IMG/VR virus record: IMGVR_UViG_3300043449_000272 | Coordinates: 1 to 41,946 of that record | Direction: 5' to 3' (one strand) | DNA from: a virus | Length of the DNA stretch: 41,946 nt | Part shown: positions 1,048 to 36,261 of the stretch, in pieces | Numbering within the stretch: the first letter of the stretch is position 1 | Layout of the letters: the number at the start of each line of letters is the position of its first letter | Program-made: the position numbers and the translations under genes | Notes under the pieces: model-generated | What the model was told of the DNA's origin: nothing | Database searches by the model: none | Seen by the model: only the letters and a program-made list of their open reading frames with translations

Positions 1048-1055
1048 TATTTATT
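1048..1055 (-). promoter_or_regulatory. AATAAATA element at a gene junction
   Basis: On the minus strand the junction between the 321-residue radical SAM gene and the left-edge gene reads AATAAATA, overlapping the TAA stop and ending two bases before the next ATG. It contains the same ATAAATA core found at four other junctions in the window and resembles the T4-type late promoter core TATAAATA. Here it is too close to the start codon to give a normal leader, so a promoter role is doubtful; it may only be an A-rich start-site context. Confidence 0.25.
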
Positions 1056-2016
1056 CGACACGGAATTTGGGGATAATGATATCAGTTCCGCACATGCACA
1101 TTTCTTTCTTACATGTAATTTGCTTAGGGCCCACACCTGAAATATCTTCTAAAATGTGGCCAACGTCCCCGCCCATGCCACAACTTGCTAAACTAACTTT
1201 GCCTACAGGATTGATAAAGATGCAGTCACCCACATTACATTTCCAATCATTGTAGAAATTTTCCCCATTGACAATAAGTTCATTAGCATTACAGAATGAT
1301 GTGGTGTCATCATCATAACGACTATAACTTACTGTGTCAGCACGTTTGTTTGGCTTAGGCAAACTTTGATGCATTTCAATGTTATGAGTTTTAAAGAATT
1401 CTTCTTTGGCAGGATCTTTATATTGCCAAGGCCCGGTTACGTGACTTAATTCGTCATATAACGGAGTCCACTCAATAAAGTAATTGGGCATTACTTTCTT
1501 AAGGCCCTCACCGAACTCTACTACTTCCCAGAAACGCTCATCGTGCATCAACATCTTGCTTGACAAGTAATTAACTTTGTCGCATAGATAAATTGAATTC
1601 TCTGTATAACGTTCTTTGTCGGTAAACTCCACGTGAAAACTTGCTACAATATCATCAAACAAATGATGATGTTTCTCCCACCATGCTAGTGGGCGTGATA
1701 GATTAGTATTAACTGCAATAGTACATGCAGGCAATTCTTCGTGTAAGAATTCACAGATAGGAATAAAGTTGCGCCACGCTGTAGGTTCTCCACCTGAGAA
1801 GAAAAACTTAAACTGTTTATATCCTACGCTCTTGTAGCGGTCAATAATAACTTTTAAATTTTCTAAGTACTTGTCTAAGTTGCCGTTATTTGGATTGGCA
1901 CCGGCCCAGTTACCTGGATTACAATAACTGCAACGGAAATTGCAGAAATTGTTAACTTGCCATGTAACTGCTACATACGGTTCCGGCGCTTCAATCGCTA
2001 TTAACTTTCGGCCCAC
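1051..2016 (-). CDS. Radical SAM enzyme with C-terminal SPASM/twitch-like Cys-rich domain (321 aa)
   Basis: This is a radical SAM enzyme: the CX3CX2C motif at C25, C29 and C32 (CNFRCSYC) should bind the [4Fe-4S] cluster that cleaves S-adenosylmethionine, and GGEP follows at residues 75-78. The C-terminal third holds seven further cysteines (C242, C260, C265, C279, C302, C307, C309), the usual layout of a SPASM/twitch auxiliary-cluster domain. This is the standard domain order, unlike the four upstream relatives. The start is GTG at 2016: AGAGGTG lies just upstream, while the ATG at 2020 is in another frame and ends after a few codons. It overlaps the upstream gene by 16 bases. SPASM-type enzymes modify peptides, proteins or sugars; the substrate here is unknown. 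Membership of the family is certain, function is not. Confidence 0.9.
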   Translation of the reverse strand: MGRKLIAIEAPEPYVAVTWQVNNFCNFRCSYCNPGNWAGANPNNGNLDKYLENLKVIIDRYKSVGYKQFKFFFSGGEPTAWRNFIPICEFLHEELPACTIAVNTNLSRPLAWWEKHHHLFDDIVASFHVEFTDKERYTENSIYLCDKVNYLSSKMLMHDERFWEVVEFGEGLKKVMPNYFIEWTPLYDELSHVTGPWQYKDPAKEEFFKTHNIEMHQSLPKPNKRADTVSYSRYDDDTTSFCNANELIVNGENFYNDWKCNVGDCIFINPVGKVSLASCGMGGDVGHILEDISGVGPKQITCKKEMCMCGTDIIIPKFRVE

Positions 2017-3272
2017 TCATACACCTCTTTAATTTCTGGTACTAAATCTTCAAACTTTTCATTTCTAAATTCATCTAATTCATCATTGAACTTTTTGAAC
2101 TCTAATACTCCGCCCTTGTTCTCATCACCTACATTTAGATTATAGATAATCATCTTGAATCCATTATAGATATCATGGTTATCTTTATACTTTTCCTGAT
2201 ATACACGATATAATTCAGTTAGTCTGCGCTTAACATGCTTAGGTAGAATCATGATGTTTGCATACCATGGGTTAGTAGCAAGATTGAAACGTGGGCTTGA
2301 CATAGTATCAATGAATCCATTCTCAATCATGTAATCAAAGAAGTCAGGGAATGTAAAGATGTTCCAAATACTAATTGTAGGAGTGATTTGAAACTTAGCG
2401 TGTGGCACCTTTTCTTTAATCTCTTTGATGTTCTCTACGATCTTATTCCAGTCAGTACCCTTACGAATACATTCAGCAACTTCACCGTGTGCATCCAATG
2501 ACGCCCAAATCTGCAAGTTGGGGAACTTCTTCCAGTATTCAATCAAGTCTACATTCTTTTTGTACTTAAGTGTAGCAAAGTTTGTAGTATAGTTTAATTC
2601 AACTTGATTAGTTAAATCATTCTCAATCCAATAGTCTAAGCATTCATAGTGTTCCGGAGTAATAATGATTTCGCCACCGGCAAAGTATACTTCAGTAACG
2701 TCTGCTAGATATGGCTTTAATTTAACCATGAACTGTTGGTCTTCGTTATTGTTAACCACAATCTTTTGATTAGGGAAATACTTCTTGAACATTTCTTCCC
2801 CGCGCTGATCTTGAAACTCTTGCGCCCACTGACTAGAACAACTTGGGCCGCAACTACGACATTTCATATTACATAAGTTACTGAAACGAATGTCCATGTA
2901 CTTCATCTCAAACTCTTTGAGACTCCCATCATCATTAGTTACATCAGTAATATAGTCTGCATACTCAAGGCCCTTGCGCTTGTTATGACTTTGACGCATT
3001 GTCCATGTACCCATCAACTCTAAGTCATAGCAACGCTTACATGCCTCAACTGGTTCGTCATCCATCATCTTACGGCGAATCTCTTTATAGTCTTCGCTGT
3101 TCATCATTTCAATGATAGACTGATCTCCATCAATCTTTGCAACAGGCATGTTACTATCAGCAACACAGCAAGGCATTACACGACTGTCAGGCCATGCGTG
3201 AAAGTGAACCCAGGGTAATACACAAAAGTGCTTGCCATTCTCTACTAAATTGTTAACAACTGCTTTATCCAT
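2001..3272 (-). CDS. Radical SAM enzyme with N-terminal twitch-like domain, GGEI variant (423 aa)
   Basis: Residues 17-81 form an N-terminal auxiliary-cluster-type domain with C17 (FCVLPWVHFH), C35-C36 and C78/C81 (CKRC). The radical SAM motif follows at C134, C138 and C141 (CNMKCRSC). This order, auxiliary Cys set before the barrel, fits what NCBI names 'twitch domain-containing radical SAM protein'. The usual GGEP SAM-binding motif is GGEI at residues 199-202, unlike its neighbours. It is clearly paralogous to the two preceding radical SAM genes, sharing the xDIRFSN-CN-KCR-CG block, the AGGE block and a SLD/SID-HG-AE-R-GT block. The start at 3272 overlaps the stop of the 103-residue gene as TAATG, and AAGGAGAA sits upstream, so translation is probably strong and coupled. 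Substrate unknown. Confidence 0.9.
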   Translation of the reverse strand: MDKAVVNNLVENGKHFCVLPWVHFHAWPDSRVMPCCVADSNMPVAKIDGDQSIIEMMNSEDYKEIRRKMMDDEPVEACKRCYDLELMGTWTMRQSHNKRKGLEYADYITDVTNDDGSLKEFEMKYMDIRFSNLCNMKCRSCGPSCSSQWAQEFQDQRGEEMFKKYFPNQKIVVNNNEDQQFMVKLKPYLADVTEVYFAGGEIIITPEHYECLDYWIENDLTNQVELNYTTNFATLKYKKNVDLIEYWKKFPNLQIWASLDAHGEVAECIRKGTDWNKIVENIKEIKEKVPHAKFQITPTISIWNIFTFPDFFDYMIENGFIDTMSSPRFNLATNPWYANIMILPKHVKRRLTELYRVYQEKYKDNHDIYNGFKMIIYNLNVGDENKGGVLEFKKFNDELDEFRNEKFEDLVPEIKEVYEWAES

Positions 3273-3583
3273 TATAGTTCTCCTTCACCATATCCACCAG
3301 TAGGCCATTCGTCATCTACTTTTCTATTTTTAAACAAGGTGAGTGATGAACATTTCATTAAACGATTTTTAACGTCACGTACAATAATTTCAATCTCTGT
3401 TGTATCTGTATCTAATGTTACTTGTGCATCGGCATCACTGCCAAATTCATTGCGTAAATCGGTCATAATTAAATCACAGGTTTCTTCTGAATATACTGTA
3501 TCTAAATACTTTTCCATAATGTTTTTGACCTTTTTACCAGTGTCGTGGTCGATGAAGTCTGCATCAGTTGAAAATGTTGACAT
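3272..3583 (-). CDS. Small protein of unknown function inside the radical SAM series (103 aa)
   Basis: I do not recognise this protein. It is acidic and mostly hydrophilic, with two cysteines (in SEETCDL and LMKCSSL), a probable beta-rich central part (QVTLDTDTTEIEIIV) and a flexible Gly-rich C-terminus (WPTGGYGEGEL). It has no signal peptide or membrane segment. AGAGGAA lies upstream of its ATG; it begins 2 bases after the stop of one radical SAM gene and ends in a TAATG overlap with the start of the next. Lodging between two paralogous radical SAM enzymes, with its own good ribosome binding site, suggests a partner, carrier or substrate for them, but nothing in the sequence proves it and no classical leader-core layout is visible. 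Confidence 0.8.
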   Translation of the reverse strand: MSTFSTDADFIDHDTGKKVKNIMEKYLDTVYSEETCDLIMTDLRNEFGSDADAQVTLDTDTTEIEIIVRDVKNRLMKCSSLTLFKNRKVDDEWPTGGYGEGEL

Positions 3584-3585
3584 AA

Positions 3586-4821
3586 TTATTCCTCTAAGTC
3601 TCTTAATTTATTTAATTCAGGGAACACTTGCCAGAAGTTTTCATCTCTAATACGATCCATTGAAGCCGTATGTTGTAAGAATTCCCCACGATAATCTTTC
3701 CATTGATCTTTATCACTAGCAAAGTTAACCGCATCTGTGATTAAACGTGACAATGATGTTCCATCACCTTCATTTGCTTTTGCCCATGCTAATGCTTTTT
3801 CTGCCGCTGGAATCTTTAATTCTTTGGGCAAACTCTTAGCGCAATAGTAATTAGGATGTACTGCTAGATAAAGACTATGATACCAATCTTCTCTACGAAC
3901 AATGTTTTTGTCCTTCAAATACTGATAGAACTCACCAATTGTTGAGTAATTGAAAATACTGAATACAGTATTCATTTGAAAGTTTACGTAATCTAAGTCA
4001 CGGAAAGTTAGTAGATTGCTTTCTACCTTACCCCAATCAGTGCCACTACGTAACCATTCAGCACGTTCACCGTAATGGTCAATACTACAACTTAGTTCAA
4101 TCTTTTTAAAGTGCTTCCACAAGTCTAAGATATCATGCTTTTTGTATTTGATATTGCTTGCGTTTGTGTTATAACGCAATGTGATATCGGTACGACCCAA
4201 ACGAATCATTTCTTCAAGCATTGTATAATGCTCGTCTGTAATCAATGGTTCGCCACCGGCAAAGTATGCTAAGTCGATATGCTCAATGTGAGTTAGTACT
4301 TCTTCTAGTACAGAACCCTTACCATCGTCAACGTGAATAACAATCGGATGTTTTGGATCAAAGTTCTTTTGCATCTCAGCACCCCATTGGCTACTGAATT
4401 CTGAACCGCATGTACGACATTTAAAGTTACAGATGTTACTAAAACGAATGTCAAAGTAACGCATCTTAAACTCTTCTACTGTTCCATCTTCTTGTGTAGT
4501 CGGAACAGTTTCATCAAAGTGTTGTGCAAAATGTTCTTTGCTATAGTTTCTGAAACTATGTGGACCTGCTTCTTCGTGCTTGTAGCAGAAGTCACAAATC
4601 TTATTCTTGCGTTCGTTAAGCATATCCAAACGCAACTCTTTCATTTTAGGACTATTAAAGATTTCCTTAAGTGAATTGTTTTTGGTATTACCAACAGGCA
4701 ATGTATAATCGTTTGAACAGCAAGGATATACATCTCCCTTGGGAGTAGCATTTAAATGCACCCAGGGGAACATGCAAAATGTCTTGCTGTCGTTTAATAA
4801 AAAGTCTTTGTCTTTGTTCAT
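3586..4821 (-). CDS. Radical SAM enzyme with N-terminal twitch-like domain (411 aa)
   Basis: The N-terminal Cys set is C16 (TFCMFPWVHL), C34-C35 and C76/C79 (CDFC), followed by the radical SAM motif at C131, C135 and C138 (CNFKCRTC) and GGEP at residues 189-192. The domain order is the same as in its neighbours. It is closest to the 430-residue gene just upstream: both share the KMRYFDIRFSNICNFKCRTC block, YFAGGEPLITD, and a D-ITLRYNTN block followed by LWKHFK and SIDHYG, as expected of a tandem duplication. I prefer the ATG at 4821, which overlaps the upstream stop as ATGA; an in-frame GTG at 4830 would add only three residues. Neither start has a strong Shine-Dalgarno, consistent with translational coupling. 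Family assignment is firm; substrate is unknown. Confidence 0.9.
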   Translation of the reverse strand: MNKDKDFLLNDSKTFCMFPWVHLNATPKGDVYPCCSNDYTLPVGNTKNNSLKEIFNSPKMKELRLDMLNERKNKICDFCYKHEEAGPHSFRNYSKEHFAQHFDETVPTTQEDGTVEEFKMRYFDIRFSNICNFKCRTCGSEFSSQWGAEMQKNFDPKHPIVIHVDDGKGSVLEEVLTHIEHIDLAYFAGGEPLITDEHYTMLEEMIRLGRTDITLRYNTNASNIKYKKHDILDLWKHFKKIELSCSIDHYGERAEWLRSGTDWGKVESNLLTFRDLDYVNFQMNTVFSIFNYSTIGEFYQYLKDKNIVRREDWYHSLYLAVHPNYYCAKSLPKELKIPAAEKALAWAKANEGDGTSLSRLITDAVNFASDKDQWKDYRGEFLQHTASMDRIRDENFWQVFPELNKLRDLEE

Positions 4822-6110
4822 ACTGGCCACATCTTTGATCTATTCACTTTGTATAATTCTCCAATTTCAGGAAACGTTTTTAGAAATGCTTCTCCGCGGA
4901 TTGCATCTAATCTTTTAACTTCTTCTCTAAATTTATTCTTTTGATCTTCCCATGTATTTTGAGACATGATCCACTGGGGACATACTTCAAGTTGACTAAT
5001 ATGTCCATCATTAAAGTTATGATCTTTCATGTAAGCAATAGTCTTGTTAATATTTTCAACGGCTTGAAGTTTATATTCTTCTGGTAAGATATGACAAGTC
5101 AAGTGTTCTGGTGTTGACATATTGTACAATGTAAAGACAGAATCTCTGGGGGTGTACATTTTCTTATCAATAATATATTTGTAAAAATCAAAAAAGGTCA
5201 ATGCATTGAATACACTTAGTACTGTATTCATTTGAATGTTAATGAAAGGTGTTTGTTTGGCTAACAAGAAGTTTTCTTCAATCTCATCCCAAACTGTACC
5301 GTGACGAATGTATTCAGCACGTGGACCATAATGATCGATACTAGCATAAATTTCAACACGATTCTTAAAGTGTTTCCATAGTCCAAGAATGTCTTTATTC
5401 TTAAACTTCAAGTTACTAAAGTTAGTGTTGTATCGTAGAGTAATATCGTGACGATTACGTCTAATCATTTCTTCTAATAGAACATAATGCTGATCGGTAA
5501 TTAGTGGTTCACCGCCGGCAAAGTATGCAATTTCCATATTATCAATTTGGTCAATAACATCTTGCAAGAATTCTTTACTGTCGTTCTTTGGGTGAACTTT
5601 TGCATACCAAACATTGTTCTTTAAGTCTTCTTGTTCCCACTGAGTACTGAATGCTGATCCACATGTACGGCACTTGAAGTTACAAATGTTACTGAAGCGA
5701 ATATCAAAATAGCGCATCTTAAATTCTTTAAGAGAACCATCTTCTAAGTTTGTATTTTCAATAACGTCATCAATTGCATGCTTGTATTGACGATTTGTCA
5801 TTACACGGAAACTGTCAACATCCTGTGCTTCATGTTCATAGCATTTCTTACACTCTTCACTCTTTACACCGGTAAGCATATCAAGACGTAGTTGTTTCAT
5901 CTTGTCACTGTTGACAAGTTCCATTAAACTTTGTTTACGTGAATTGCCAACACCATCTTCTGTTGCGCAACTTTCTGCAATACAGCATGGTGCGGCAATA
6001 CCCGTTGGGGTAGTATGCAAGTGAATCCACGGGTTCATACAAAAAGTTTCGCTCTTACCGAGCAATAACTTCTTTACGAAAGAGGATGAGTTAGGCTTGT
6101 TTCCTGACAT
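4818..6110 (-). CDS. Radical SAM enzyme with N-terminal twitch-like domain (430 aa)
   Basis: The N-terminal auxiliary-type Cys set is C24 (TFCMNPWIHL), C42-C43 with C48 nearby, and C87/C90 (CKKC). The radical SAM motif is C143, C147 and C150 (CNFKCRTC), with GGEP at residues 199-202 in YFAGGEPLITD. It is a close tandem paralog of the next gene downstream. The chosen ATG at 6110 gives a 37-base overlap with the upstream radical SAM gene, longer than other overlaps here, and has no clear Shine-Dalgarno; a slightly later non-ATG start cannot be excluded, but the first required Cys (C24) limits how much later it could be. The stop overlaps the next start by 4 bases. Family certain, reaction unknown. 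Confidence 0.9.
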   Translation of the reverse strand: MSGNKPNSSSFVKKLLLGKSETFCMNPWIHLHTTPTGIAAPCCIAESCATEDGVGNSRKQSLMELVNSDKMKQLRLDMLTGVKSEECKKCYEHEAQDVDSFRVMTNRQYKHAIDDVIENTNLEDGSLKEFKMRYFDIRFSNICNFKCRTCGSAFSTQWEQEDLKNNVWYAKVHPKNDSKEFLQDVIDQIDNMEIAYFAGGEPLITDQHYVLLEEMIRRNRHDITLRYNTNFSNLKFKNKDILGLWKHFKNRVEIYASIDHYGPRAEYIRHGTVWDEIEENFLLAKQTPFINIQMNTVLSVFNALTFFDFYKYIIDKKMYTPRDSVFTLYNMSTPEHLTCHILPEEYKLQAVENINKTIAYMKDHNFNDGHISQLEVCPQWIMSQNTWEDQKNKFREEVKRLDAIRGEAFLKTFPEIGELYKVNRSKMWPV

Positions 6111-7477
6111 AATCTATAAAAGTCCATCATTTCTGGGAATGCAGAAAGCATATCTGCTTCTCTGCGGTCGTCTAGTTCATTAAACCAATTGTAAAAGTCT
6201 CTACGACCCTCAATTAGTTTCTTGTCATCATAGACTGTCTCTGCCATATAGTCAACCACTCGCTTGAACTTTTCATATTCAATTGTTGTGAATGCGTCAG
6301 GGCGTGAATCATCAACGTTATCTTCCATAAACTTCAATGATTCGTACATGTAGGGCATGAATTCTTCTTTGGGAAGAATATTCATATCGTATTGAATTGG
6401 CTCACGCAAGTATGGAGTATCAAAACGCACACGATGCTTGTCGTGTGGCTTGTCTTCATACCAGCCATATTGCTTGCGCCATTCAAGGAACTTTTCAAGC
6501 AATGACTTAAATGAAGTCACTGAAAAGATATTAAATGTAATCATAAACGTAATTGGACTGTCACTACGTGTTAGATATGTGTGGAAGTTTTGTTCCCACA
6601 ATTCTAAGTCTAGTCCAGTACGAATATATTCCGCACGTTCACCCCATGTATCTAATGAGGTAAACAGTTTGAAACTTTGAATCTTACCTTCATCAGATAG
6701 TTTCTTTACCTTGTCTGCTAAACGTTCTATGAGAACTGGCTTTGTTCCAAGATTACTGTTGATGTTTAGTTCTAACCAAGGCATGGGGTCTTCTTCAATC
6801 TTGTCAAGTAGTTGCCAAGTTGATTTGTGAAGTGTGGGTTCACCGCCAGTGACTCGCATGATGTTTAATGTCTTACGTAGTTCAGGCCACCATTCCCAAA
6901 ATGCATCAACATATGGGTTTTCTTCTTCACGCTGATATAGTTTCATCCAGTCAATGTCACAACGATGGTTCTTAACATTAGTAACGGGACCAAACTTTTC
7001 AATTTCTTTATAGAAACTAGTACTGTACTTAGGGTGACAGTAACCACACTTGAAGTTACATTCGTTACCAAAGTTGATTTCTAAGTATTCTGGATTGATG
7101 TTTTGATCCCAAGCACCCTTTGCTGTTTGTTCAAAACGTTCTTCTGTAAAGATTGAACTATTACGAATATGGCGATCACTAATGTAATCGGGACCCATTG
7201 CTTCAATGTTCCAGCAATACTGACAACCTTCGGGCTTCTTGCCCTCAAGCATCATCTTACGTTCTAGTTTCTTTTCCATTGTGTTATGCAATGCTGAAGG
7301 ATTATCCTTCAACTCTGATAATGGAATCTTGTGTGGCTTGGGGTGATAACAACTATGTGTCTCGCCTGATTGCAAGTACATTGTCACGTGATGCCACTTA
7401 GCCAAACAGAATGTAGGAGTTGATTGATTTTCAACTACAACTCTGATATCTTTAATTCTGTTTGTTTCGTAACTCAT
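6074..7477 (-). CDS. Radical SAM enzyme, divergent N-terminal twitch-like member (467 aa)
   Basis: First and most divergent of the four N-terminal-domain radical SAM genes. C24 (TFCLAKWHHV), a single C43 (SCYHP, where relatives have a CC pair) and C85/C88 (CQYC) form the N-terminal set. The radical SAM motif is C140, C144 and C147 (CNFKCGYC), with GGEP at residues 211-214 (RVTGGEPTLH) and a SLDTWGERAEYIRTG block shared with its relatives. The loss of one Cys of the pair suggests a differently ligated auxiliary cluster or none. The ATG at 7477 overlaps the stop of the upstream GT-like gene as TAATG, with GAGGG a few bases before. This couples the radical SAM series directly to the glycosyltransferase-like genes. 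Substrate unknown. Confidence 0.9.
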   Translation of the reverse strand: MSYETNRIKDIRVVVENQSTPTFCLAKWHHVTMYLQSGETHSCYHPKPHKIPLSELKDNPSALHNTMEKKLERKMMLEGKKPEGCQYCWNIEAMGPDYISDRHIRNSSIFTEERFEQTAKGAWDQNINPEYLEINFGNECNFKCGYCHPKYSTSFYKEIEKFGPVTNVKNHRCDIDWMKLYQREEENPYVDAFWEWWPELRKTLNIMRVTGGEPTLHKSTWQLLDKIEEDPMPWLELNINSNLGTKPVLIERLADKVKKLSDEGKIQSFKLFTSLDTWGERAEYIRTGLDLELWEQNFHTYLTRSDSPITFMITFNIFSVTSFKSLLEKFLEWRKQYGWYEDKPHDKHRVRFDTPYLREPIQYDMNILPKEEFMPYMYESLKFMEDNVDDSRPDAFTTIEYEKFKRVVDYMAETVYDDKKLIEGRRDFYNWFNELDDRREADMLSAFPEMMDFYRLCQETSLTHPLS

Positions 7478-8427
7478 TACCAGCCCTCAATTTTTCTAAT
7501 AACATCCATCTCTTTAACAAGAGGACCCAAGTTGTGCTTGTCTGCATTGTAGTGACGCTTAAAGAATTTGCTTTGCTCTGCATTAAATGTACAGATAGGT
7601 AGTCCTAATTTTGCATGCAATTCATCACCAATCAATTCAGCACTTAATTCGGCATTGTTGTTCTTGTATTTCTCCCACATAACGGGATAGTTATCAAACC
7701 ACATAACATTCTTGTGGTCCCAATCTGTAAGCATTGTCATGTAAGTACCAAGTCTTGCACCATAGATAGCCCACATACCGTTCTCTACATCTAGTCCAAC
7801 GTTGTGCCAAATAGTGAGGTTGTTTAGATTGCGTGATGCAACTCTTTCTTTAAAGTCATCTATACTGGGCTTTGCACCCCGATCAAGTACCATTTTGACA
7901 CCCTCACGGAATCCTGCTCTCCACGCTTGGAAGGGAGTATAATTCGGATACGTAGTTGAGTAGCAATCATACATTGCCCAGTATAGATTATCGGCAGAGT
8001 CCATACAGAAATCTACCTGCGTAGCGTCACTTCCGTCGCTAGTTTCATGTGTCTTCATATCAGCAACATATGATTTAGTCCAACTTGACATGCCACCGTT
8101 GCCATAACGCAACCCATTGATAGCATTAACTGCTCTCCAACGATATTGTGCAAGGTGATAGTTTGAGTCAAGACCAGTAAAGTCTAGTTGCATATTAAAA
8201 AACGATTCATCGGGCATGTTGTCACCATCAATTAGAATGAAACGTTCTGTATCGCTTATTTCACCTGCGGCTTTGTGTGCGGCGTCAGAACCTTTGACTC
8301 CGTCAACACGCTTTGCCCAAGGCACCATGTTCTTAATCTTTAGCCAAAATTCTTCTTTCTGCGGCTCATCATAACTTAGATAAATGCAGTCTAAGTCTGC
8401 TACATCAATGATATCATCGGAGTTCAT
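7477..8427 (-). CDS. GT-A-like glycosyltransferase family protein (316 aa)
   Basis: The N-terminal region reads like a GT-A nucleotide-sugar fold: a short strand (LDCIYLSYDEP, from residue 12), a basic stretch around AKRVDGVKG (38-46) and a strand ending in an acidic DGDN motif at residues 67-70 (ERFILIDGDN), where GT-A enzymes carry their metal-binding DxD. The rest is rich in aromatic residues (for example AQYRWRAVNAINGLRYGNGG and the YPNYTPFQAWRAGFREG region), compatible with acceptor binding. It overlaps the upstream small gene by 14 bases and the downstream radical SAM start by one base. A sugar transferase is the best guess; donor and acceptor are unknown. It could be an inactive fold-mate, since only the DxD-like motif is visible. 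Confidence 0.7.
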   Translation of the reverse strand: MNSDDIIDVADLDCIYLSYDEPQKEEFWLKIKNMVPWAKRVDGVKGSDAAHKAAGEISDTERFILIDGDNMPDESFFNMQLDFTGLDSNYHLAQYRWRAVNAINGLRYGNGGMSSWTKSYVADMKTHETSDGSDATQVDFCMDSADNLYWAMYDCYSTTYPNYTPFQAWRAGFREGVKMVLDRGAKPSIDDFKERVASRNLNNLTIWHNVGLDVENGMWAIYGARLGTYMTMLTDWDHKNVMWFDNYPVMWEKYKNNNAELSAELIGDELHAKLGLPICTFNAEQSKFFKRHYNADKHNLGPLVKEMDVIRKIEGW

Positions 8428-8761
8428 AAGTTTTTAATTTCCAATTTTGCTTCTTAATCTTTTTGTCTTTGGTAGTGAGAACAATACTTAAATCTTCGGC
8501 CGCGCAAGTTTGACCTTCATCATTTGGAACTAATTTAGAAACAACTGCGTTAGCACTAACTCTAATTATCTTTCCATCAAGTACTCTTACATCAGGTCTG
8601 CCTTCGGCATAAGTTTGTGAATCAATTACTACATAATTGCCTTCTAACTTTTCACAAGTGTATGTAACAACTTTGCCCTTATCATCATAGTAAAGTCTGA
8701 ATTCGGGCTTTACAATTTTGGGGGCTTCCCAAATTAAAATGTATTCTTCATCGTTATTCAT
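8414..8761 (-). CDS. Small protein of unknown function between GT-like genes (115 aa)
   Basis: I do not recognise its function. I choose the ATG at 8761 (protein begins MNNDEEYILIWEAPK) because GGAGA lies seven bases upstream; the longer in-frame start at 8785 would add eight residues without such a site. The protein looks beta-rich: FRLYYDDKGKVVTYTC, NYVVIDSQTY, DVRVLDGKIIRVS. Its C-terminus is Lys-rich (KDKKIKKQNWKLK). Two cysteines are present. It has no membrane segment or signal peptide. It overlaps its neighbours on both sides (8 and 14 bases), so it is made together with the GT-like proteins and may be an accessory subunit or a carrier; this is inference from position only. Confidence 0.8.
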   Translation of the reverse strand: MNNDEEYILIWEAPKIVKPEFRLYYDDKGKVVTYTCEKLEGNYVVIDSQTYAEGRPDVRVLDGKIIRVSANAVVSKLVPNDEGQTCAAEDLSIVLTTKDKKIKKQNWKLKTYELR

Positions 8762-9512
8762 TTGTATTCTCCAGTATTGTATCACAGAAGTCTTTCAAAT
8801 GATAGTGGAAAGGATACATTTGTGGAATAGTATTTACTCGTAGTGTATTGGGTAATATTTCGTAAACTAATACATCTCTCCAGTCTTCACTAGGAGTTCC
8901 ATTAATAAACTGCTTCATGTGAATCATTGACATATCTTTAAAGTTAGGAAGTGTAGTATGCTCTACGCCAATGATGTGACATGCTAGTGCGTATACCCAA
9001 TCTGTTGTTGCTAATTCGTCTTTGTTACACTTTAAGATAGCACGATACTCATCCCAATTTTCAAAGATATCTCTGACAACTTTGAAAAACTGTTCTGCAC
9101 GTTCACTCTTCTTAAAATAAGTTAATCCGTTATATGTGTCTGGTAACTTGTTATCATCAATGAATCTACGATATGCACGAACAGGAGTAATCTCTTGTTT
9201 AAAGTTTCGTGCTGTAGTTGATACTACTACATCACGTTCTTTAAGAACGTCCCACCAATAGTCGATTGACTTTGGTAGATACATATCTGCTTCTAATTTG
9301 ATTGTATATTCATAAGGACTTGCTTCATATACTTGCCAGTCATTTTGTAACTTCCAATCAGTATCAACTGCTTGATCGCCATATGGTAACATTTCAGTGG
9401 TAATGATTGTTACGTTTGCATTAGGCATAACGTTTTTAATACTACGTTCTAATGCTTTAGCGCATTTAACATAGTCATTACCCTGTGCCATGATTACAAA
9501 GCCTTTATCCAT
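8754..9512 (-). CDS. GT-A-like glycosyltransferase family protein (252 aa)
   Basis: Begins MDKGFVIMAQGNDYVKCAKAL, a typical first strand and helix of a GT-A fold, followed by a second strand NVTIIT (residues 33-38) and an acidic EADM motif at 74-77 (YTIKLEADMYLP) in the DxD position. A later segment, LTYFKKSERAEQFFKVV, matches a block in the next upstream gene (VIMFRKSDRAEQIFKCL), so the two are paralogs. Histidines near the C-terminus (IHMKQF, FHYHLKDF) could help bind metal, as in GT8-like enzymes. AAGGGA lies upstream of the ATG, which overlaps the upstream gene by 8 bases. It probably transfers a sugar; donor and acceptor unknown. The E-A-D instead of D-x-D weakens a claim of activity. 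Confidence 0.72.
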   Translation of the reverse strand: MDKGFVIMAQGNDYVKCAKALERSIKNVMPNANVTIITTEMLPYGDQAVDTDWKLQNDWQVYEASPYEYTIKLEADMYLPKSIDYWWDVLKERDVVVSTTARNFKQEITPVRAYRRFIDDNKLPDTYNGLTYFKKSERAEQFFKVVRDIFENWDEYRAILKCNKDELATTDWVYALACHIIGVEHTTLPNFKDMSMIHMKQFINGTPSEDWRDVLVYEILPNTLRVNTIPQMYPFHYHLKDFCDTILENTNE

Positions 9513-10317
9513 TGTGAATAATCCCTTCGAATAAGTCTTTGTTCATTAAGTGAAAGTCCATATCTTTCATAGTAATGTATTCTTTACGAATTTTACCTCG
9601 TTGCCAGTTATCAAACATCACCGTATATTCAGTATTGAATTCGGAATTAACATTAGGATAAATTTGCGTATTTTTTCCAACGTGCAATAAATCCCAAGGA
9701 ATAACATCGCGGGAATCACTACTATGGCCGTTAGCAATACGGAGGGCAAGAGTAAGAGCGTAATCGTTGCGATATACACCGGCGATAAAATTATGAATGT
9801 TGGCGTAGTGTTCATAGTTCTTTTGTACCATTTCTAAACATTTAAAAATTTGTTCTGCTCTGTCACTTTTTCTAAACATGATAACAGTTGCCCACAATGT
9901 TTCATAACTATATGCTGATAATAATTCTTGTGATACTTTAGGATGCATTAGAAAACTTGTTCTATCGTGACAACAGAATTCAGTATCGATATCAAAGAGT
10001 GTTAGTAACTTTTTAGAGTTGACAACATAGTCAACGTCTAGTAGAATGGTTTCATCATATGGACTTAAATCATAGGCCATATAACGACCTTTATTGATCC
10101 ACATCCCCCAATCACGGAAATTGTTTTTGTCAGGGACTACTTTAATAATCTTATCCCAAACTCCGTCTTCCACATCTTTGGGCAAAGATGCTTTATCAGT
10201 TACAATAGTAACTGGTAGATTTAAAAAGTGCCTAACTCGTTTGGCAGTATGTTCTGCCATTTCATAATAATTGTATTTAGGTGAGTTAAACGCAAATAGT
10301 ATTACGCCTCGACTCAT
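9505..10317 (-). CDS. GT-A-like glycosyltransferase family protein (270 aa)
   Basis: Opens with MSRGVILFAFNSPKYNYYEMA, then LPVTIVTD (residues 34-41), and carries a good DxD motif DVD at residues 94-96 in ETILLDVDYVV, the usual metal/nucleotide-sugar site of GT-A folds. RKSDRAEQIF is shared with the downstream 252-residue paralog. DFHLMNKDL near the C-terminus places a His in the position where such folds often have a metal ligand. The protein start overlaps the upstream small gene by 4 bases (ATGA), so translation is likely coupled. It stands near the head of the accessory island, directly after the fibre genes, which makes fibre or host-surface glycosylation plausible but unproven. Confidence 0.75.
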   Translation of the reverse strand: MSRGVILFAFNSPKYNYYEMAEHTAKRVRHFLNLPVTIVTDKASLPKDVEDGVWDKIIKVVPDKNNFRDWGMWINKGRYMAYDLSPYDETILLDVDYVVNSKKLLTLFDIDTEFCCHDRTSFLMHPKVSQELLSAYSYETLWATVIMFRKSDRAEQIFKCLEMVQKNYEHYANIHNFIAGVYRNDYALTLALRIANGHSSDSRDVIPWDLLHVGKNTQIYPNVNSEFNTEYTVMFDNWQRGKIRKEYITMKDMDFHLMNKDLFEGIIHNG

Positions 10318-10619
10318 CTTTTAGACTCTAGTTCTTTCCACTCAGCATGCCATTCATACATAACAGAATGATATACATTTGTTAACTTATCCAATAAATC
10401 ATCACGATTTACTTCAACTGGATTATCAAAAGTGTCTATCATTACCAACTTAGTAACATTACTTGATTGTAAAAAGGCAATGGTTTGTTGATCGGCTTTC
10501 CACAAGCCGCCCTGTTCTGCAATGATTAGTTTATTGTTGTATTTCTCTGCGAGATATGCTTTTGCAGAGTTATGATTAAATCTGGCTTTTGCGTCTGCTA
10601 TTAAAGTTTTGGTATCCAT
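10314..10619 (-). CDS. Small conserved phage-type protein, function unknown (101 aa)
   Basis: A basic, largely helical protein beginning MDTKTLIADAKARFNHNSAKAY, with a central KLIIAEQGGLWKAD segment and a short beta segment LVMIDTFDNPVEVNRDDLL, ending in a Trp-rich helix (YEWHAEWKELESKR). I recall close relatives in marine T4-like phages, but no assigned function. It sits immediately after the fibre genes, where many phages place a fibre-assembly chaperone; this is a positional guess only. AGGAGTG lies upstream of the ATG, but both the Shine-Dalgarno and the start codon fall inside a perfect inverted repeat, suggesting translational control. It overlaps the downstream GT-like start by 4 bases. 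Confidence 0.82.
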   Translation of the reverse strand: MDTKTLIADAKARFNHNSAKAYLAEKYNNKLIIAEQGGLWKADQQTIAFLQSSNVTKLVMIDTFDNPVEVNRDDLLDKLTNVYHSVMYEWHAEWKELESKR

Positions 10620-10670: not shown

Positions 10671-11624
10671 TTATGAACCAGATACAGTGCCTGCTAGGGT
10701 AATTGCACCCCAACTGTTTGCAATGTTAGTTGTTTCGGGAAGAGATAATGTCATAGTAGTTGCCGAACCTGATGATGCGGCTAGACCATCTGGAACTTCG
10801 TCCCAAATAGTATAAATTGTGATAACTGAACCGGCATCACCGTTTGAACCAACTGTACCATTTGACTTAGCAATAAAGCGAATAAATGTACCTAAATATC
10901 CGGCTGGGCCAGTACTTGCAGTTTGAGTAAACACTGTTGCGTTGGCAGTTGTCATACCATAATAGCCTTTAGTAGAATCTACAGTAGGAGCATTACCACC
11001 TCCACCAACTTTCTGAATACCAGCGTATGATGTTCCAACAATACTAACAGTACCTGATGTTGGTGCTGACTGAACTACAGTACCGACGTTACTTGCTAAG
11101 TTGTTAAGCAATAAGTTGATACCTGTACCACCGGGATGCGATACTGTCATTTTAATTTGACCACCTGAGTTAAAGAAGTAACGTGCGGCATCGCCATTAG
11201 CAAAAGTTGCAGTATGTGTAAAGGTTAATTGATTTGACCATGCTGAACCATAAGTAGCAGTGTTAGATGTTGTTGAACCTTGTGTGGCTGCGTTAAGTCT
11301 ACTTCCATAAACTGTTTGCAAATTAGTAGGAATAGCAGATAAGAAGGTAACAGTACCACCTGCTGTTGGTGCAGTAACAGAAGTAATTGTTGATCCTTGA
11401 TGGGTTGCGGCGCTCGCCGTATTTGTCACAAGTGCGTTCCATTGACCCGTAGCAACTACCGTATTTCCTACTGCAACGTTAGCAACTGCGGTTTGACCAT
11501 ATCCGGCTGTACCGCCACCTGTTGCCCATGTAGCATTCAGTGTATTAGCAGTTGTAGTTGGGTTACCCCCTACGAACGTGTTAAAGTCTGATGCTTGAAT
11601 TAATCCAAATTGTGCGTATGCCAT
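10671..11624 (-). CDS. Tail fibre or virion structural protein (317 aa)
   Basis: Composed mainly of Gly, Thr, Ala, Ser and Asn, with no cysteine seen and no membrane segment, typical of beta-rich trimeric fibre proteins. The N-terminus MAYAQFGLIQASDFNTFVGG followed by GYGQTAV, a GQWNALV segment and THQGSTI matches, from memory, a family of small structural proteins of marine T4-like phages. The C-terminal region contains GTFIRFIAKSNG and YTIWDEVPDG, probably a compact folded tip. It starts 12 bases after the 406-residue fibre gene with AGGAA upstream of ATG. Its role as a baseplate- or fibre-attached virion protein is an inference from composition and position, and no receptor-binding specificity can be read. 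Confidence 0.72.
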   Translation of the reverse strand: MAYAQFGLIQASDFNTFVGGNPTTTANTLNATWATGGGTAGYGQTAVANVAVGNTVVATGQWNALVTNTASAATHQGSTITSVTAPTAGGTVTFLSAIPTNLQTVYGSRLNAATQGSTTSNTATYGSAWSNQLTFTHTATFANGDAARYFFNSGGQIKMTVSHPGGTGINLLLNNLASNVGTVVQSAPTSGTVSIVGTSYAGIQKVGGGGNAPTVDSTKGYYGMTTANATVFTQTASTGPAGYLGTFIRFIAKSNGTVGSNGDAGSVITIYTIWDEVPDGLAASSGSATTMTLSLPETTNIANSWGAITLAGTVSGS

Positions 11625-11636
11625 TTTTTATTCCTA

Positions 11637-12857
11637 TTATCTAATCGTGACGATGGCTTCTACAAAGCCTAAATCATCAGTTGTTTTGTCTTCTAACGCT
11701 CTACCAATAGTATTGAATGCAGATGCTTCACCTGGATTAGCACCACGTGCTATGCCTTCGCCAGCACTGACAAGACGCTGACCTTTTGTAATTTTACCTG
11801 TAACTTTAACTTGTACACGACCTGACACCGCGACCGGTGGGTGAGTCTTATCATCACCTGCGCCTGCATTCATCAAGTACGCCGCAGTATCAGAGATAAC
11901 ACCAAAAATGTCATCTGACAATTCATATTGAACTGCGGTGATTTCTTTGTCACCACCAAGTTGAACAACTGTACCCGGAGCATATTCTTCGTCGGCTGCG
12001 AAACGCTCGGCCAAGTCAGCGTATGTTGCTTGCATTCTAGAACCAGCACTTAGAGTCCAGTTACCAGTTAGTGTACCTGCAGTAGTATTTGCACCAGTTG
12101 TAAGAACAGTTGCTTGAGTTTGTACAGTAAGAATGTTACCACCATAAACAGTTAGATAACTTGCAACGTTTGTGTTGCTATATGTACCAGCGAATGAGAT
12201 TGGATCACCGTTTGCATACATGTACTTGTCAGTACGAATACCAAACAAGTTACCAGTGTTATTAATGTAAATACCACCTGTATTGAAGACAACAGCATTA
12301 GCATTATTACCGCCTGCAGAACCATTGATTGTCCAAACACCAGTCAACGTACCTGCGGTAGTTGCTGATCCGGTTGTGATAGCAGTAGTAGTTAGTGTAC
12401 CAATATTTGCGGCAGTGATATTTGCTTGTGCGATGTTAGCATTTGCAGAGATTGAAAGATAACTTGCGGTGAATACGTTTGCAGTCACTTCATTAGTTGC
12501 AGATAAGTTATTTGAAGAAAGATTTCCAGTAACTGTGACTGCACCGAATGATGTATTACCACCTGATGATGTAGCAGTTAGTGCTAACCATGCTAGAGCA
12601 TTGCCCTCACCGTCTGTTGGACACACATAAAGAGTACTATTGTTGGTGTTGTACCAAAGTTGACCTCGCAGTGGGTTTGGGGGAGGGGTAGTATCTGCAA
12701 AGTTTTCCATTGCGTGGACAAAGTTTGTGTCCAAAGACTGCCCGTAACCGGCGTAGTTTCTACCCGGTAAACCCAAAGAAGTACTAGTCGTATTAATAGT
12801 ACCATCAGCAATGGTAGTTAGGACTGTACCATCACTTTTTACAATTGTATATGCCAT
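11637..12857 (-). CDS. Tail fibre protein with a C-terminal DLAERF-type domain (406 aa)
   Basis: The N-terminal 85 residues (MAYTIVKSDGTVLTTIADG, GLPGRNYAGYGQSL, PPPNPLRGQLWYNT) match, from memory, the attachment region of fibre proteins in T4-like marine phages. The middle is Thr/Asn/Gly/Ala-rich with a repeated TTAGTLTGxWT unit, a fibrous shaft. From about residue 280 a distinct domain starts (ADLAERFAADEEYAPGTVV, later FGVISDTAAYLM, VAVSGRVQVKVTG, IGRALEDK). This domain type ends many phage fibres and is reminiscent of the Peptidase_G2/chaperone-type C-terminal domains that trimerise and may self-cleave; I cannot confirm cleavage. GGAGTGA lies upstream of the ATG, and a GATAAATA element lies 22 bases before the start. 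Confidence 0.8.
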   Translation of the reverse strand: MAYTIVKSDGTVLTTIADGTINTTSTSLGLPGRNYAGYGQSLDTNFVHAMENFADTTPPPNPLRGQLWYNTNNSTLYVCPTDGEGNALAWLALTATSSGGNTSFGAVTVTGNLSSNNLSATNEVTANVFTASYLSISANANIAQANITAANIGTLTTTAITTGSATTAGTLTGVWTINGSAGGNNANAVVFNTGGIYINNTGNLFGIRTDKYMYANGDPISFAGTYSNTNVASYLTVYGGNILTVQTQATVLTTGANTTAGTLTGNWTLSAGSRMQATYADLAERFAADEEYAPGTVVQLGGDKEITAVQYELSDDIFGVISDTAAYLMNAGAGDDKTHPPVAVSGRVQVKVTGKITKGQRLVSAGEGIARGANPGEASAFNTIGRALEDKTTDDLGFVEAIVTIR

Positions 12858-12887: not shown

Positions 12888-13508
12888 TTAGATAGTAACC
12901 AAATTAGTTAGACTCTGAATTCTAACTGTATAATCGATCTGAATCTGTCTGTTCAACGATTTTTGAACAGGGTGAAAAATTACATGCGTCAATAGACGGG
13001 TAATTATGTCACCGTTACTGTCTGTTCCATAGTTGGCCAACAGACCTAATTCGTCAAATGTGTAAGAACTATCAGTTTGTGTGCTGTTATCAAACGCTGC
13101 CTGTCCTGAAGGTTCACCATAATCTAACAAACATTGAACTAGAATGTCAGTATAAACACGACCTGTGGTGTGAAAAACTGTCATTTTGTTACGTGTTGGG
13201 TCTAAGTTGAAAACGCTGGTATCGTCTACAATCTTCTCGTAAGTTTGGTTGTATAGAGCGGCGTTCTGACCGGTCACGTTAGGTGGCAAATAAGTGATTA
13301 CGCCAGTTTCATCAACTGATGCACCACCATTACCAAAAGCCATTTGATAGATTTCTCCATAACCACGACTACTCAGAGTATCAGCGATAGCCTCTGACAT
13401 ATTCTCGTAGTTGATAGCATTTTTCTTTTCTACGAAAATTTCCCCGTTATTAGGGTCGTAAATCTTAAGAAAACCCTCAACTTTATACGATAACGTAATC
13501 AAAGACAT
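12888..13508 (-). CDS. Conserved virion-type protein of T4-like marine phages (206 aa)
   Basis: Begins MSLITLSYKVEGFLKIYDPN and continues with KKNAINYENMSEAIADTL, YQMAFGNGGASVDETGVITYL and, at the C-terminus, HVIFHPVQKSLNRQIQIDYTVRI. I recall this family from structural gene clusters of marine T4-like phages; the exact function is not known to me. The pattern is beta-rich with no membrane segment. GAGGGG precedes the ATG, which overlaps the stop of the 50-residue gene by one base (TAATG). Its first 30 residues resemble the C-terminal half of that small protein (KI-DPN--E----K), suggesting a shared domain. Position after the giant baseplate-type gene and before fibre genes suggests a connector or short-fibre component. 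Confidence 0.75.
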   Translation of the reverse strand: MSLITLSYKVEGFLKIYDPNNGEIFVEKKNAINYENMSEAIADTLSSRGYGEIYQMAFGNGGASVDETGVITYLPPNVTGQNAALYNQTYEKIVDDTSVFNLDPTRNKMTVFHTTGRVYTDILVQCLLDYGEPSGQAAFDNSTQTDSSYTFDELGLLANYGTDSNGDIITRLLTHVIFHPVQKSLNRQIQIDYTVRIQSLTNLVTI

Positions 13509-13675: not shown

Positions 13676-16600
13676 TTAGGTAATATCCACATGTAAGAAT
13701 TGTGCAGGGACAGTATCGCTAATCTGCAATGGATCTCCCTCAACTGGGTTGAAATTATATGAATTCCAAGTTTGACCATAATAGACACTTGGAAGTTGAT
13801 TATTAGTCAACAATCCATATACTTCAGTATAAGTTGGAATTAATGTCTGCATTGCAGTACCGTTAGCACCGCGTTGTAGTTGACCCAAAGTGTTATTAAC
13901 AAAGTCTACTGTTCCGAACTTAATAATTTCTCCATTAATGTAGATAATGTTACCTGCAAGAGTATTGATTGTTAATGAGTTTCCGGCTGTGATATATGCA
14001 CCGGCTGCAATCTTCAAGACTGGAGCCAAATTCTCAATAATCACTTCAAAATTATCACTATCAATTTCATTACCCGTAGTATTATTTAAGACCTGAACTC
14101 CAGTGATAATTGTTTTATCTGCGGTTAGACCAATATAATAATAGCCGTTGACTAGTGCTGGGGCAGTTACATTTTGTACCACAACATCAGTTAATCTAGT
14201 TACATCATTAACATAAATTAAAGTACTCAAGTCATAGATTGGTTGCATTAACCAAGTTCTAGTCTGTGTATTATCTCTATACACTGTTCCTTCGTTGATT
14301 TGATTTACAAAGTTAATGTAAATCTCTTCGTCAGGGGTTGCGTGAGGGATCATACTTGTAATGATGACTTCATCACCTGGGATAATTTGAGTAAGAATAC
14401 TTACTTCGTTGTCTGCATTTACACGTAACTTACTTGAAGGTACACGCAATCCGTTAACAGTTACCCATAAACGATCTACGTTTACTTGTTCCCACTGAGT
14501 TACGTTAGCAGGACCTGTATCATTTGTTAATGCAAATGTAGTTCCATTTCTAGTTGCTGAAACGCTGAACTGTGTAAGGCTAAAGATTTCCTTAATATAA
14601 TAAGTTGTACCCTGTACTAGACCACCAATAATTGTATTACCGGCTTGCTGTCCAACTTCAGTGAAGATTACCGGAGTACCTACTACTAAGTTAGCAGTAG
14701 AACTTACAGTAATTCTACCGGTAGTTGCTGTTGCTGTTGCTTGAGTAGTAATGATAAAGAATGTACCTGCTCTCCAAGTATATCCGCCGCCGGTATATGA
14801 TGCTACCGCAGTAACTGGGTAGTTAACTGCACTGAGTGCAGGATCATATGGCTGAGTATACAAATCAAAAGTATACTTGTCAATAATCTTAGCATAGTAA
14901 ACGTTGTTGTTCAACTGAATTGAACCAGTTGTTCCATCGATTCGAATTAAAGTGTTTTCTCCAAATTCATTAGCAATTGCAGTAGTTACACGTACTGATG
15001 GTGTTCCACCGACTTGTACTAGCATGTTACCAGAGCCGCTTGTAGTTACAATTTGGTTACCATCTTGGTCTTTGATTGTGAATTTAGTTGAACCAACTTT
15101 TGAATCAACAAAGTATACTGTACCATTAGTTGCAATGCCACCAAAAGATGTTCCAAAGAACTGAACAGTCTGTCCTACAATAAAGTTATCATTTGAATCG
15201 ACTGTAATCTCGTTTGGTGAACCAGCAGTTGATGCAGTTGCAAATGTAGTTGCGATTGGGGGCGCAATTACGTTAGTAATATTAGAGATAGCGGCGACTG
15301 TTAAACCGTTTGCAGTTGAAAGCATTGCACCTGAAGCATTAGTAAGTTGTACTGCTTCACCACCAACTGTCTCTGAAACTACAAATTCAGTTGAACTTAA
15401 AATTTCAGTAACATAATAAGTTTGACCTGCAACAATTCCACCAATAGTTGGCGCACTAAAGATAATTGAATCATTAACATTCAATGAACTTGTGTTGCCT
15501 GATGAGAGAGTTAAATAATTCAAATTCTCATCATATGCGACTACAGACGGAGTGTCTTGGTCGTAAGACTGTGCAATTGGTGTATCTTGATCGTAAGTAC
15601 CTTCGGTGTGAGTCGTTGTACCAACAGTCAATGTAACGAATGCTGATCCAGGTGTACCTGTAATACCATATTGTGAGATAAGATATTGTCTTTGTGTATC
15701 ATTGTATGAAGTTACACTTACGGTTGCACCAGCAGCCGGCGGATTAATAAAGTTCACTGTGTTAAGACTTGGATCAATTGTGTATTGAGAAATAGTCTGT
15801 CTTACTCCATCAATCTCAACAATAGCGTTATAAGCATTATCATCACCAACAAAGTTATCTAAGTTAAATGATGAACTTGAACCGTTGCCTGTAAATTCTT
15901 CAACTTGAGGTAAAGTATATCCATATTGTGCAGGAAGTGTTTCACCAAAGATTGAATATGAGATAAAATCAGTACTGTTATCATAATTGCCAGTAGCAAA
16001 TATCATTTTGGCAGCAATGCCGTTTGGTTGAATGCCAAACGCATAATCATTACTAATAAATGATGCACCACCTGTTGCATCAGTAAGAACCTTAACTGGG
16101 CCTCCCAAAGTTTCTGAAATAGTAAACTCGTTACCATCTACAATTGATGCGATATAATATGTTGTTAACGGTGTGATATCATCTCCAAACATTGTGTTAC
16201 CAAACACGATTGGAGTACCAACTACTAATCCACCAGTCGAATTGGTTGTGATTGAGTTGTTGACTGAGTTAGTCTTTGTTACACTACCTGTTTTACCCAA
16301 TACAAGTTGTACCCCATTGTGATATACAATTGGGTCTGTCCAAACAAGTCCAGTACCAACTTGAATATTAATTAACATTGAACCAGTTGCACTTGTCAAT
16401 GAAAGGGTTGGGCCTGCAGTACCAGTAATACCGTTATAAGATGCAGAAATCGTAATTGCATTAGTAGCATAACTTATTGATTTAACATAATACTGTGTTT
16501 CTTCTGCGACACCACCGAATACAACACCCTGGAATGTGATCGGGCTATTAAGCACTAAATCTTCAACGCTTACGCACGTAATACGATCGGTTAATGAATC

Positions 16601-35800: not shown

Positions 35801-36261
35801 TCTAACCAATTTGGGTTAGCAGGGTCATTCCATAAAATAGGAATGTTACTTAGATTAACACCATTAATGTCGGTGATATTTTGAGAAGTAGTAATGCTTG
35901 TTACTTTGATATAGCCCTGACCAGCAATGTTTCTTTTAGGAGTATAACTTACAAGATTGGCAAGTTTGATAACAGAATCACGGCGTTCTGCGGTATCAAT
36001 AAAGTTTTCACGTGCGTTTAAGTCACTGCGGAACGCAAGACCTTGTCCCATGAACGCCATAACGTCCAGTAGGGCAATGAATTCAGAAGATTCAACATAG
36101 TCATTGAATGTTTCTGGGTAGTACAGACGCAAGTAATCGATGAAACTTTTACGCAAAGTCTCATAGTCATAACTTCTAAAGTCTGCTTCTCTGAACGTTT
36201 GGTAGATAGTCTTCCAATCGTTCGTTCCAAATAATGCTGATTGTCGTGAACTGGTTGCCAT
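32899..36261 (-). CDS. gp6: Baseplate wedge protein, gp6/J-like (1120 aa)
   Basis: The N-terminus (DWKTIYQTFREADFRSYDYE, LRKSFIDYLRLYYPETFNDY, SSEFIALLDVMAFMGQGLAF, then LNARENFIDTAERRDSVIKL and ANLVSYTPKR) is the characteristic opening of T4 gp6-type wedge proteins, which join the wedges into a ring around the hub in the baseplate. The C-terminal part ends with a SALRGTIKVIK block, a helical ASDSEIRSAVLSAMNNYF segment and a PFGDLYEIKCMPYEIFVNG tail, also usual for the family. At 1120 residues it is much longer than T4 gp6 (660), with extra beta-rich sequence in the middle. It lies 50 bases after the gp25-like gene with AAAGAGAAA before the ATG. The pairing with gp25 is typical and supports the call. 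Confidence 0.88.
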   Translation of the reverse strand: MATSSRQSALFGTNDWKTIYQTFREADFRSYDYETLRKSFIDYLRLYYPETFNDYVESSEFIALLDVMAFMGQGLAFRSDLNARENFIDTAERRDSVIKLANLVSYTPKRNIAGQGYIKVTSITTSQNITDINGVNLSNIPILWNDPANPNWLEQYNTILNAAMIDSQRIGRPGNVSELLGITTSEYALQIPPNSLPIVPFKSTIDGQSMSFELVSATSIDEDYVYEVPPAPSGKFNILYRNDKLGFGSPNTGFFFYFKQGALQNFDFNLQQQISNQTIDIGTIQGVNNSDTWLYQLNNDNTRTLWRKVDNVYADAYLQTEFSNKKIYSVDSRFNDQVTYVFGDGVFSEIPVGNYRAYVRAGNALTYTIEPSEMNGVSVSFSYVSRLGRVETLTMGLELTTTVSTAQARETIANIKQRAPTRYYTQNRMVNGEDYNNFPYTLYSSIIKSKAINRSSVGVSKNLDLLDPTGKYSSTNSFGSDGALYQDDTDGNLTLTINNTSDIIAFFTDTLAAALADNNATQYYIQNYTRYPAPTNPSVLWRTSSVDSGTESGYFYTVSGSLESPMSVGTFSTSNLKYITTGAICKFTAPSGFYFDNNNRLVAGIAPSGYYNYIWTTILNVIGDGSNNSEGSFANGSGPIRLNGYVPNGVTLSQIIPVFDNSLSTTLIQECIIRMELQQDFTLVFNNSLTINQERWSIQAFTNPNYFVKFTSLGNNRYSITYKSLTYYFGSVADTRFTFARDELVYDPFSGKIIQDFINMLGVNSQYNSSNPIGRDTKVNILGQTIESDGYVNDFQVEVAATDVNNRELILNPDFFSDITGYVTGGANIGVYVFFETVEDAISLTREYIIPTSDVIYQYGTKTQVEVVKYDYPLGQLFYAYTENKFYKSVQDQTVTTPSYIMTEQPQYNVKPGRQGLSFQYRHNSNNTTRIDPVTTNIIDLYVVTQAYYTAYTNWITDTTNTIAEPDRPTISELTTEYSQVQDFKMLSDAVIVNSVVFKPLFGPKAPSALRGTIKVIKASNVNASDSEIRSAVLSAMNNYFNVNNWNFGDTFYFSELSAYLHAQCGELISSAVLVPNDPTQPFGDLYEIKCMPYEIFVNGATANDVLVVPALTPAELQVR

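Follow-up and report, generated by a model that had tools for sequence, protein, structure and literature searches.

The window analyzed here, i.e. the whole 41,946-nt stretch of the linear viral record IMGVR_UViG_3300043449_000272 (IMG/VR; 41,946 bases), contains five genes encoding radical S-adenosylmethionine (SAM) enzymes, designated R1 to R5, which lie in a row at positions 1051–7477 with a single small gene (S) between them. We propose, with about even confidence, that these genes constitute the radical SAM part of a glycan island that jumbo T4-like myophages carry within their tail-fibre (host recognition) cluster. All of the genes of interest are on the minus strand and the order of transcription is: baseplate genes, a giant open reading frame (ORF), the fibre-cluster genes T3, T2 and T1, then U5, U4, U3, U2 and U1 (among them candidate glycosyltransferase genes), R1, R2, R3, S, R4, R5 and the glycosyltransferase-like D1. 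The ORFs were called with a simple script.

The radical SAM genes and their conservation

The proteins R1 (6074–7477; 467 aa), R2 (4818–6110; 430 aa), R3 (3586–4830; 414 aa) and R4 (2001–3272; 423 aa) are radical SAM enzymes with an N-terminal twitch domain, which scored 318, 371, 376 and 361 bits, respectively, against NF033640, i.e. far above the cut-off of this family (170 bits). R5 (1051–2016; 321 aa), which carries a C-terminal Cys set, was recognized by PF04055 (36.8 bits; cut-off 29.5 bits). R1, R2 and R3 also exceed the latter cut-off, while R4 remains below it (19.3 bits) and is covered by NF033640. Each of the five proteins contains exactly one CX3CX2C motif (at C140, C143, C134, C134 and C25 in R1 to R5, respectively). 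Four N-terminal auxiliary-cluster cysteines are present in each of R1–R4 (e.g. C24, C43, C85 and C88 in R1, and C19, C37/38, C79 and C82 in R3), and the invariant C-terminal cysteines of R5 are C260, C279, C302, C307 and C309 (alignment A1). Neighbouring genes either overlap or directly adjoin one another in an operon-like manner, with overlaps of 37 nt (R1/R2), 13 nt (R2/R3) and 16 nt (R4/R5). S (3272–3583; 103 aa) is a small optional ORF present in few relatives. The row of five genes with one small gene between them, given in the original prediction, is confirmed by these coordinates and family scores, and its account of the motifs (CX3CX2C in all five, four N-terminal Cys sets and one C-terminal set) proved correct.

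R5 reached only 30.8 bits against NF033640, over the core alone, which places it outside that family; to judge from its sequence, it is a radical SAM protein of a family separate from that of R1–R4. Viperin (NF038283) was its top match by E-value, yet the score of 33.8 bits is far under the cut-off of 180 bits, and this assignment was rejected. A weak PDB profile match was to MoaA (E 9e-4).

The original prediction had also stated that at least three of the copies arose by duplication. This holds for R2, R3 and R4, whose pairwise identities are 46% (R2–R3), 34% (R4–R2) and 32% (R4–R3); R1 is a distant paralogue of these three (21–24% identity) and R5 belongs to another family.

In order to examine conservation, viral contigs were scanned with R3 and R5, which yielded 124 and 110 relatives, respectively. 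The loci were thus selected by similarity to genes of the window; the contigs are fragmentary, and absence was counted only where enough sequence was present. The gene order U1-R1-(R2)-R3-(S)-R4-R5 was found to recur on one strand in 62 loci with distinct R5, with R2 present in approximately half of the cassettes. The radical SAM motif was kept in all of the genes examined (288/288) and the N-terminal four-Cys set in 225 of 226; the frequent loss of cluster cysteines, named in the original prediction as an argument against it, was therefore not observed.

In a tree of 145 proteins, the R1 proteins form a single clade (support of 100 in the Shimodaira–Hasegawa-like approximate likelihood ratio test), as do the R4 proteins (support of 98), and R2 and R3 together make up a third. 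The branches of R1 are the shortest, this being the slowest evolving member of the set, and those of R2 are long; R2 is an optional, fast-evolving copy related to R3. The existence of old, separate paralogue clades, together with the recurring gene order, indicates that the duplications are old and that the set was inherited as a block, and does not fit a collection of unrelated recent arrivals. In comparisons with three close relatives, the ratio of nonsynonymous to synonymous substitution rates (dN/dS) was 0.03–0.10 for R1–R5 wherever synonymous divergence (dS) was unsaturated, which argues that these genes have been retained for function under purifying selection. The corresponding values for S were 0.14–0.26.

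Modularity of the set and its counterparts in bacteria

A less biased view was obtained when loci were retrieved with R1 only, which gave 173 distinct R1 loci, 118 of them with at least 5 kb of downstream sequence. R4 and R5 are gained or lost together: among these 118 loci both genes were present in 69, neither in 47, and only 2 were discordant. The state of R4 changes at least 11 times on the R1 tree, and R5 switches in the direction of R4 in 7–8 of 9 independent, well-supported pairs and in the opposite direction in none (median p 0.016). For R3/R2 the linkage was weaker (p 0.07).

R1 is the sole enzyme of the set in 40 of the 118 loci, which excludes the possibility that the five genes form a single indivisible unit. 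Loci devoid of R2–R5 retain T2-T1-U5-U4-U3-U2-U1-R1, and U1 is present in 44 of the 48 loci lacking R4. For example, in locus L225, whose R1 is 86% identical to that of the window, U1-R1 is followed by S and D1, and R2–R5 are missing together. The retention of the fibre and transferase genes in the R1-alone loci indicates that R1 is part of a fibre-plus-transferase core, to which R3-R4-R5 constitute a linked extra. The five-enzyme pathway suggested originally thus stands as regards the conservation of order and cysteines, but not as one unit, since 47 of the 118 loci lack both R4 and R5, 40 carry R1 alone, and R2 is optional.

Two further observations concern the composition of these loci. In L225, U2 and U1 are separated by the insertion of a 544-aa repeat-rich Gly/Ser/Thr protein (L225:4766–6400). 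One further NF033640 gene is located at a distance from the cassette in four of six large contigs (200–364 kb); in one of these, L209, this gene (L209:14896–16110) comes after a DegT-like aminotransferase gene.

Members of the set also occur in predatory bacteria. R1 relatives (E <1e-40) were detected in 74 of 291 Bdellovibrionota genomes, and R5 orthologues (E <1e-100) in four of the 291, in all of which R4 adjoins R5; the bacterial R4 and R5 orthologues show 41–46% identity. As in the window, R4 and R5 lie side by side, but the bacterial loci are chromosomal, without fibre genes or evident surrounding sugar genes, and R5 is followed by a shorter third radical SAM gene (approx. 340 aa), after which R1 comes in one case. 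The adjacency of R4 and R5 in these bacteria suggests that the pairing either predates the phages or crossed between phages and bacteria. Such R4-R5-radical SAM triplets were seen in the chromosomal loci L168, L200 and L201. Some of the bacterial R1-type genes adjoin genes of SGNH-like membrane-anchored proteins.

The predicted glycan island and alternative explanations

The window terminates within a sugar-gene island, the remainder of which was read from relatives. In the nearest of these, L087 (R4 98% and R5 96% identical), the region past the window end encodes D1, an NAD epimerase (PF01370, 157 bits), a D1-like protein, an SGNH-like protein, a B12-binding radical SAM protein and further proteins. 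Longer contigs carry, further downstream, a second B12-radical SAM protein, a UDP-sugar dehydrogenase (PF03721/PF00984), a DegT aminotransferase and a carbamoyltransferase (PF16861), and some loci add RmlC (PF00908), a sugar C-methyltransferase (PF08484) and an E1-like enzyme. D1 copy counts are approximate, since the single-linkage cluster c3 mixes D1-type proteins with UDP-sugar dehydrogenases via fused genes. The association with glycosyltransferase-like genes, pointed out in the original prediction, is thus real and extends into a long island. The series of five, correct for the window, is exceeded in the relatives, which have one or two additional, B12-dependent radical SAM genes farther along the island. 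In jumbo contigs the island is closed by giant proteins (1234–1568 aa) with a U1-like domain and no Pfam match (L208:7610–11311, L210:13736–18070 and L213:1–4707).

Several transferase candidates lie within the window itself. The GT-A-like U1 (7477–8427) usually adjoins R1, with or without R2–R5. D1 (2–1045), truncated by the window end, is GT-B-fold glycosyltransferase-like, to judge from the model of its complete relative in L087. Because profile searches of the PDB with U1 and D1 gave nothing useful, their folds were predicted. The top Foldseek match of the AlphaFold model of U1 was the PBCV-1 capsid glycosyltransferase 2p6w (E 3.7e-4, probability 1.00, approx. 133 columns, N-terminal domain only), and the model of the L087 D1 matched OtsA/VldE-type GT-B folds (E 2e-4, probability 1.00), these E-values being modest and the models of middling confidence (mean predicted local distance difference test scores of 79 and 72). 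U3 (8754–9512; phrog_1903) and its paralogue U4 (9505–10317), which share 25% identity, are candidate GT-A (GT8-like) glycosyltransferases: alignment A6 revealed a GT8-type pattern, composed of a DxD-like motif with its Asp invariant and a C-terminal H...K (H256 and K260 of U4 are conserved, together with the DxD).

The location of sugar-nucleotide genes and cytosolic transferases beside fibre genes makes a virion glycan the simplest account of the island. Our preferred reading, held at about even odds, is that an unusual glycan, tailored by radical chemistry, would be made in the cytosol and most likely attached to the tail fibres. By established radical SAM chemistry, each of R1–R5 would use the cleavage of SAM to remove a hydrogen atom, and would tailor sugars in this manner, by means of the 5′-deoxyadenosyl radical. 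R1–R4, whose four-Cys auxiliary cluster is like that of BtrN and would suit the oxidation of a sugar or cyclitol alcohol, may be dehydrogenase- or epimerase-like, and the B12-radical SAM proteins of the island may act as methyltransferases. The GT-A and GT-B transferases (U1, U3, U4 and the D1 family) would place the sugars on a virion protein in the cytosol, prior to assembly, the most likely acceptors being the fibre-type proteins T1 and T2. R1 together with U1, U3 and U4 would make the basic decoration, R3, R4 and R5 would add a linked extra step that is gained or lost as a unit, and R2 may be a copy adapted to a sugar that changes.

The butirosin aminocyclitol dehydrogenase BtrN oxidises an aminocyclitol and contains a four-Cys auxiliary cluster (PMC9012708). 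The twitch region of R3 gave a weak profile match to this enzyme (PDB 4m7s, E 8e-4); however, the similarity is restricted to the twitch domain, which is C-terminal in BtrN and N-terminal in R1–R4. It is also possible, though we advance this only tentatively, that R3-R4-R5 form a co-inherited radical SAM relay, with R4-R5 partly shared with relatives in predatory bacteria, which builds a carbohydrate (or other) modification new to viruses and bacteria and placed on the fibre.

Several points weigh against a fibre-linked glycan. The substrate, the product and the glycan itself are predictions from gene content, and known SPASM/twitch enzymes act mostly on peptides. The Bdellovibrionota R1 and R4-R5 loci mostly have no obvious surrounding sugar cluster. 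U3 and U4 have no Pfam match and were assigned by motif reading, the fold match of U1 is confined to its N-terminal domain, and the glycan genes past D1 lie outside the window and were taken from relatives.

The main rival explanation, which we consider unlikely, is that the island alters an (O-antigen-like) surface polysaccharide of the host and thereby blocks superinfection or re-adsorption, the radical SAM enzymes tailoring a host-linked sugar. The host recognition clusters of pelagimyophages, rich in GT8 genes, have been read in this way (PMC7029224), and the combination of deoxysugar, carbamoyl and aminotransferase genes recalls the gene sets for O-antigens. However, the islands read contain neither a flippase or polymerase nor an initiating transferase bound to the membrane, and their composition is not that of a Gtr-type system. 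Transmembrane-like segments were found, by hydropathy only, in none of 15 window proteins and in 3 of approx. 130 island proteins of relatives, and nearly all island proteins are thus predicted to be non-membrane. The genes also lie in a structural operon directly behind the fibre genes, where late expression is expected. A flippase supplied by the host could rescue the idea.

The enzymes might instead modify protein side chains of the fibre or of a small protein, in a manner resembling the maturation of ribosomally synthesized and post-translationally modified peptides or of anaerobic sulfatases, with the sugars forming a separate layer. Many SPASM/twitch enzymes act on peptides (PMC8326336), and the small proteins U5 and S are candidate substrates within the cluster. 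We consider this unlikely too, as U5, which is conserved, has no match to a known recognition domain, S is missing from most relatives (which eliminates it as a universal peptide substrate), and the module recurs beside sugar enzymes and not beside peptidases or exporters. Hypermodification of phage DNA with glycans is hardly credible in spite of the established glycosylation of phage DNA by GT-A/GT-B enzymes, since the module is tied to the fibre genes of the late structural operon, and no adjoining DNA-modification gene was seen in the stretches read.

Radical SAM cassettes located beside tail fibres and GT8 transferases have already been noted in pelagimyophages (Zaragoza-Solas et al. 2020, PMC7029224), where the cassette is mentioned in a phrase as part of a hypervariable cluster. 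The island of the window matches the host recognition clusters of pelagimyophages and cyanomyophages in position and content, but its lineage differs from the pelagimyophage cluster in the fixed order R1-(R2)-R3-R4-R5 found in many contigs, in the all-or-none occurrence of R4/R5, and in belonging to jumbo phages. The moraphage paper (PMC12619734) reports glycosyltransferases and no radical SAM genes. A search confined to open-licence papers turned up no earlier account of the fixed order, of R4/R5 as an all-or-none pair, of the retention of the cysteines, of the counterpart in Bdellovibrionota or of the B12-radical SAM companions; the suggestion of an undescribed pathway needs narrowing, given the cassettes already noted in pelagimyophages.

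In most descriptions, the sugar genes of phages are loose extras that change quickly. Here, in hundreds of fragments of uncultured aquatic phages, the order of the radical set and almost all of its cluster ligands are retained, and two of the enzymes are inherited as a pair. Should the product prove to be a virion glycan, phages would possess a radical sugar chemistry of several steps for attachment or for escape from recognition by the host or a predator, and the family NF033640, to which no reaction is assigned, would have one that can be put to the test.

Genome setting and cultured relatives

The cassette lies in a phage structural region, as originally described, following baseplate, giant ORF and tail-fibre genes. 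A Phage_base_V-type gene (36788–40747) is transcribed ahead of a gp25-like (36312–36767) and a gp6-like (32899–36261) baseplate gene. The gp6-like protein shows 34% identity to its homologue in Serratia phage BF, with similar values for Cronobacter phage GAP32 and Agrobacterium phage Atu_ph07, and these jumbo-phage matches place the window, itself a fragment, among the jumbo T4-like myophages; contigs of up to 364 kb occur among the relatives. The giant ORF (13676–32890; 6404 aa), which has no frame break, separates the genes of the baseplate wedge from those of the fibres. Its N-terminal part is approx. 30% identical to jumbo-phage structural proteins (PA5oct, Atu_ph07), and it occupies the position of VrlC in marine T4-like phages.

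The fibre cluster comprises T3 (12888–13508), a conserved protein with 82–95% identity in relatives and no Pfam match; the tail-fibre-like T2 (11637–12857), with a Peptidase_G2 autoproteolytic chaperone domain (PF11962, 26.5 bits; cut-off 25); and T1 (10671–11624), a putative tail-fibre or surface protein and candidate acceptor, judged so by position and conservation, with no Pfam match. Peptidase_G2 domains are typical of phage fibres. The giant 6404-aa baseplate gene, T2 and the glycosyltransferase-like U1, U3, U4 and D1 thus follow one another in the manner of a T4-like host recognition cluster. Two small proteins have no Pfam match: U5 (10314–10619), whose gene separates the fibre genes from those of the transferases and is conserved in order, and U2 (8414–8785), a member of the core that is conserved in position. 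No tRNA genes, Rfam matches or tandem repeats were detected in the window.

Searches of 50,697 phage records gave no match for R5, U1, U5 or a divergent R1. In the 398 genomes of the phylum of a Rhodobacteraceae bin, the only match of R5 was a misbinned phage contig. This contig, L169 (NZVE01000006.1), binned as Rhodobacteraceae, is a fragment of one of these phages with the full cassette and provides no sound host link.

A cultured way in is offered by Vibrio phages K566 and K567 (approx. 255 kb), which carry four NF033640-type genes (two of them above the cut-off) interleaved with GT8 genes. Both kinds of gene occur together, as in the window lineage, but the interleaving is independent: the identity is 23–29%, no R1 or R5 orthologue was found, and the gene order is different. 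The radical SAM/GT8 stretch of K566 (L006) spans positions 14959–22704, and this phage may serve as a laboratory model.

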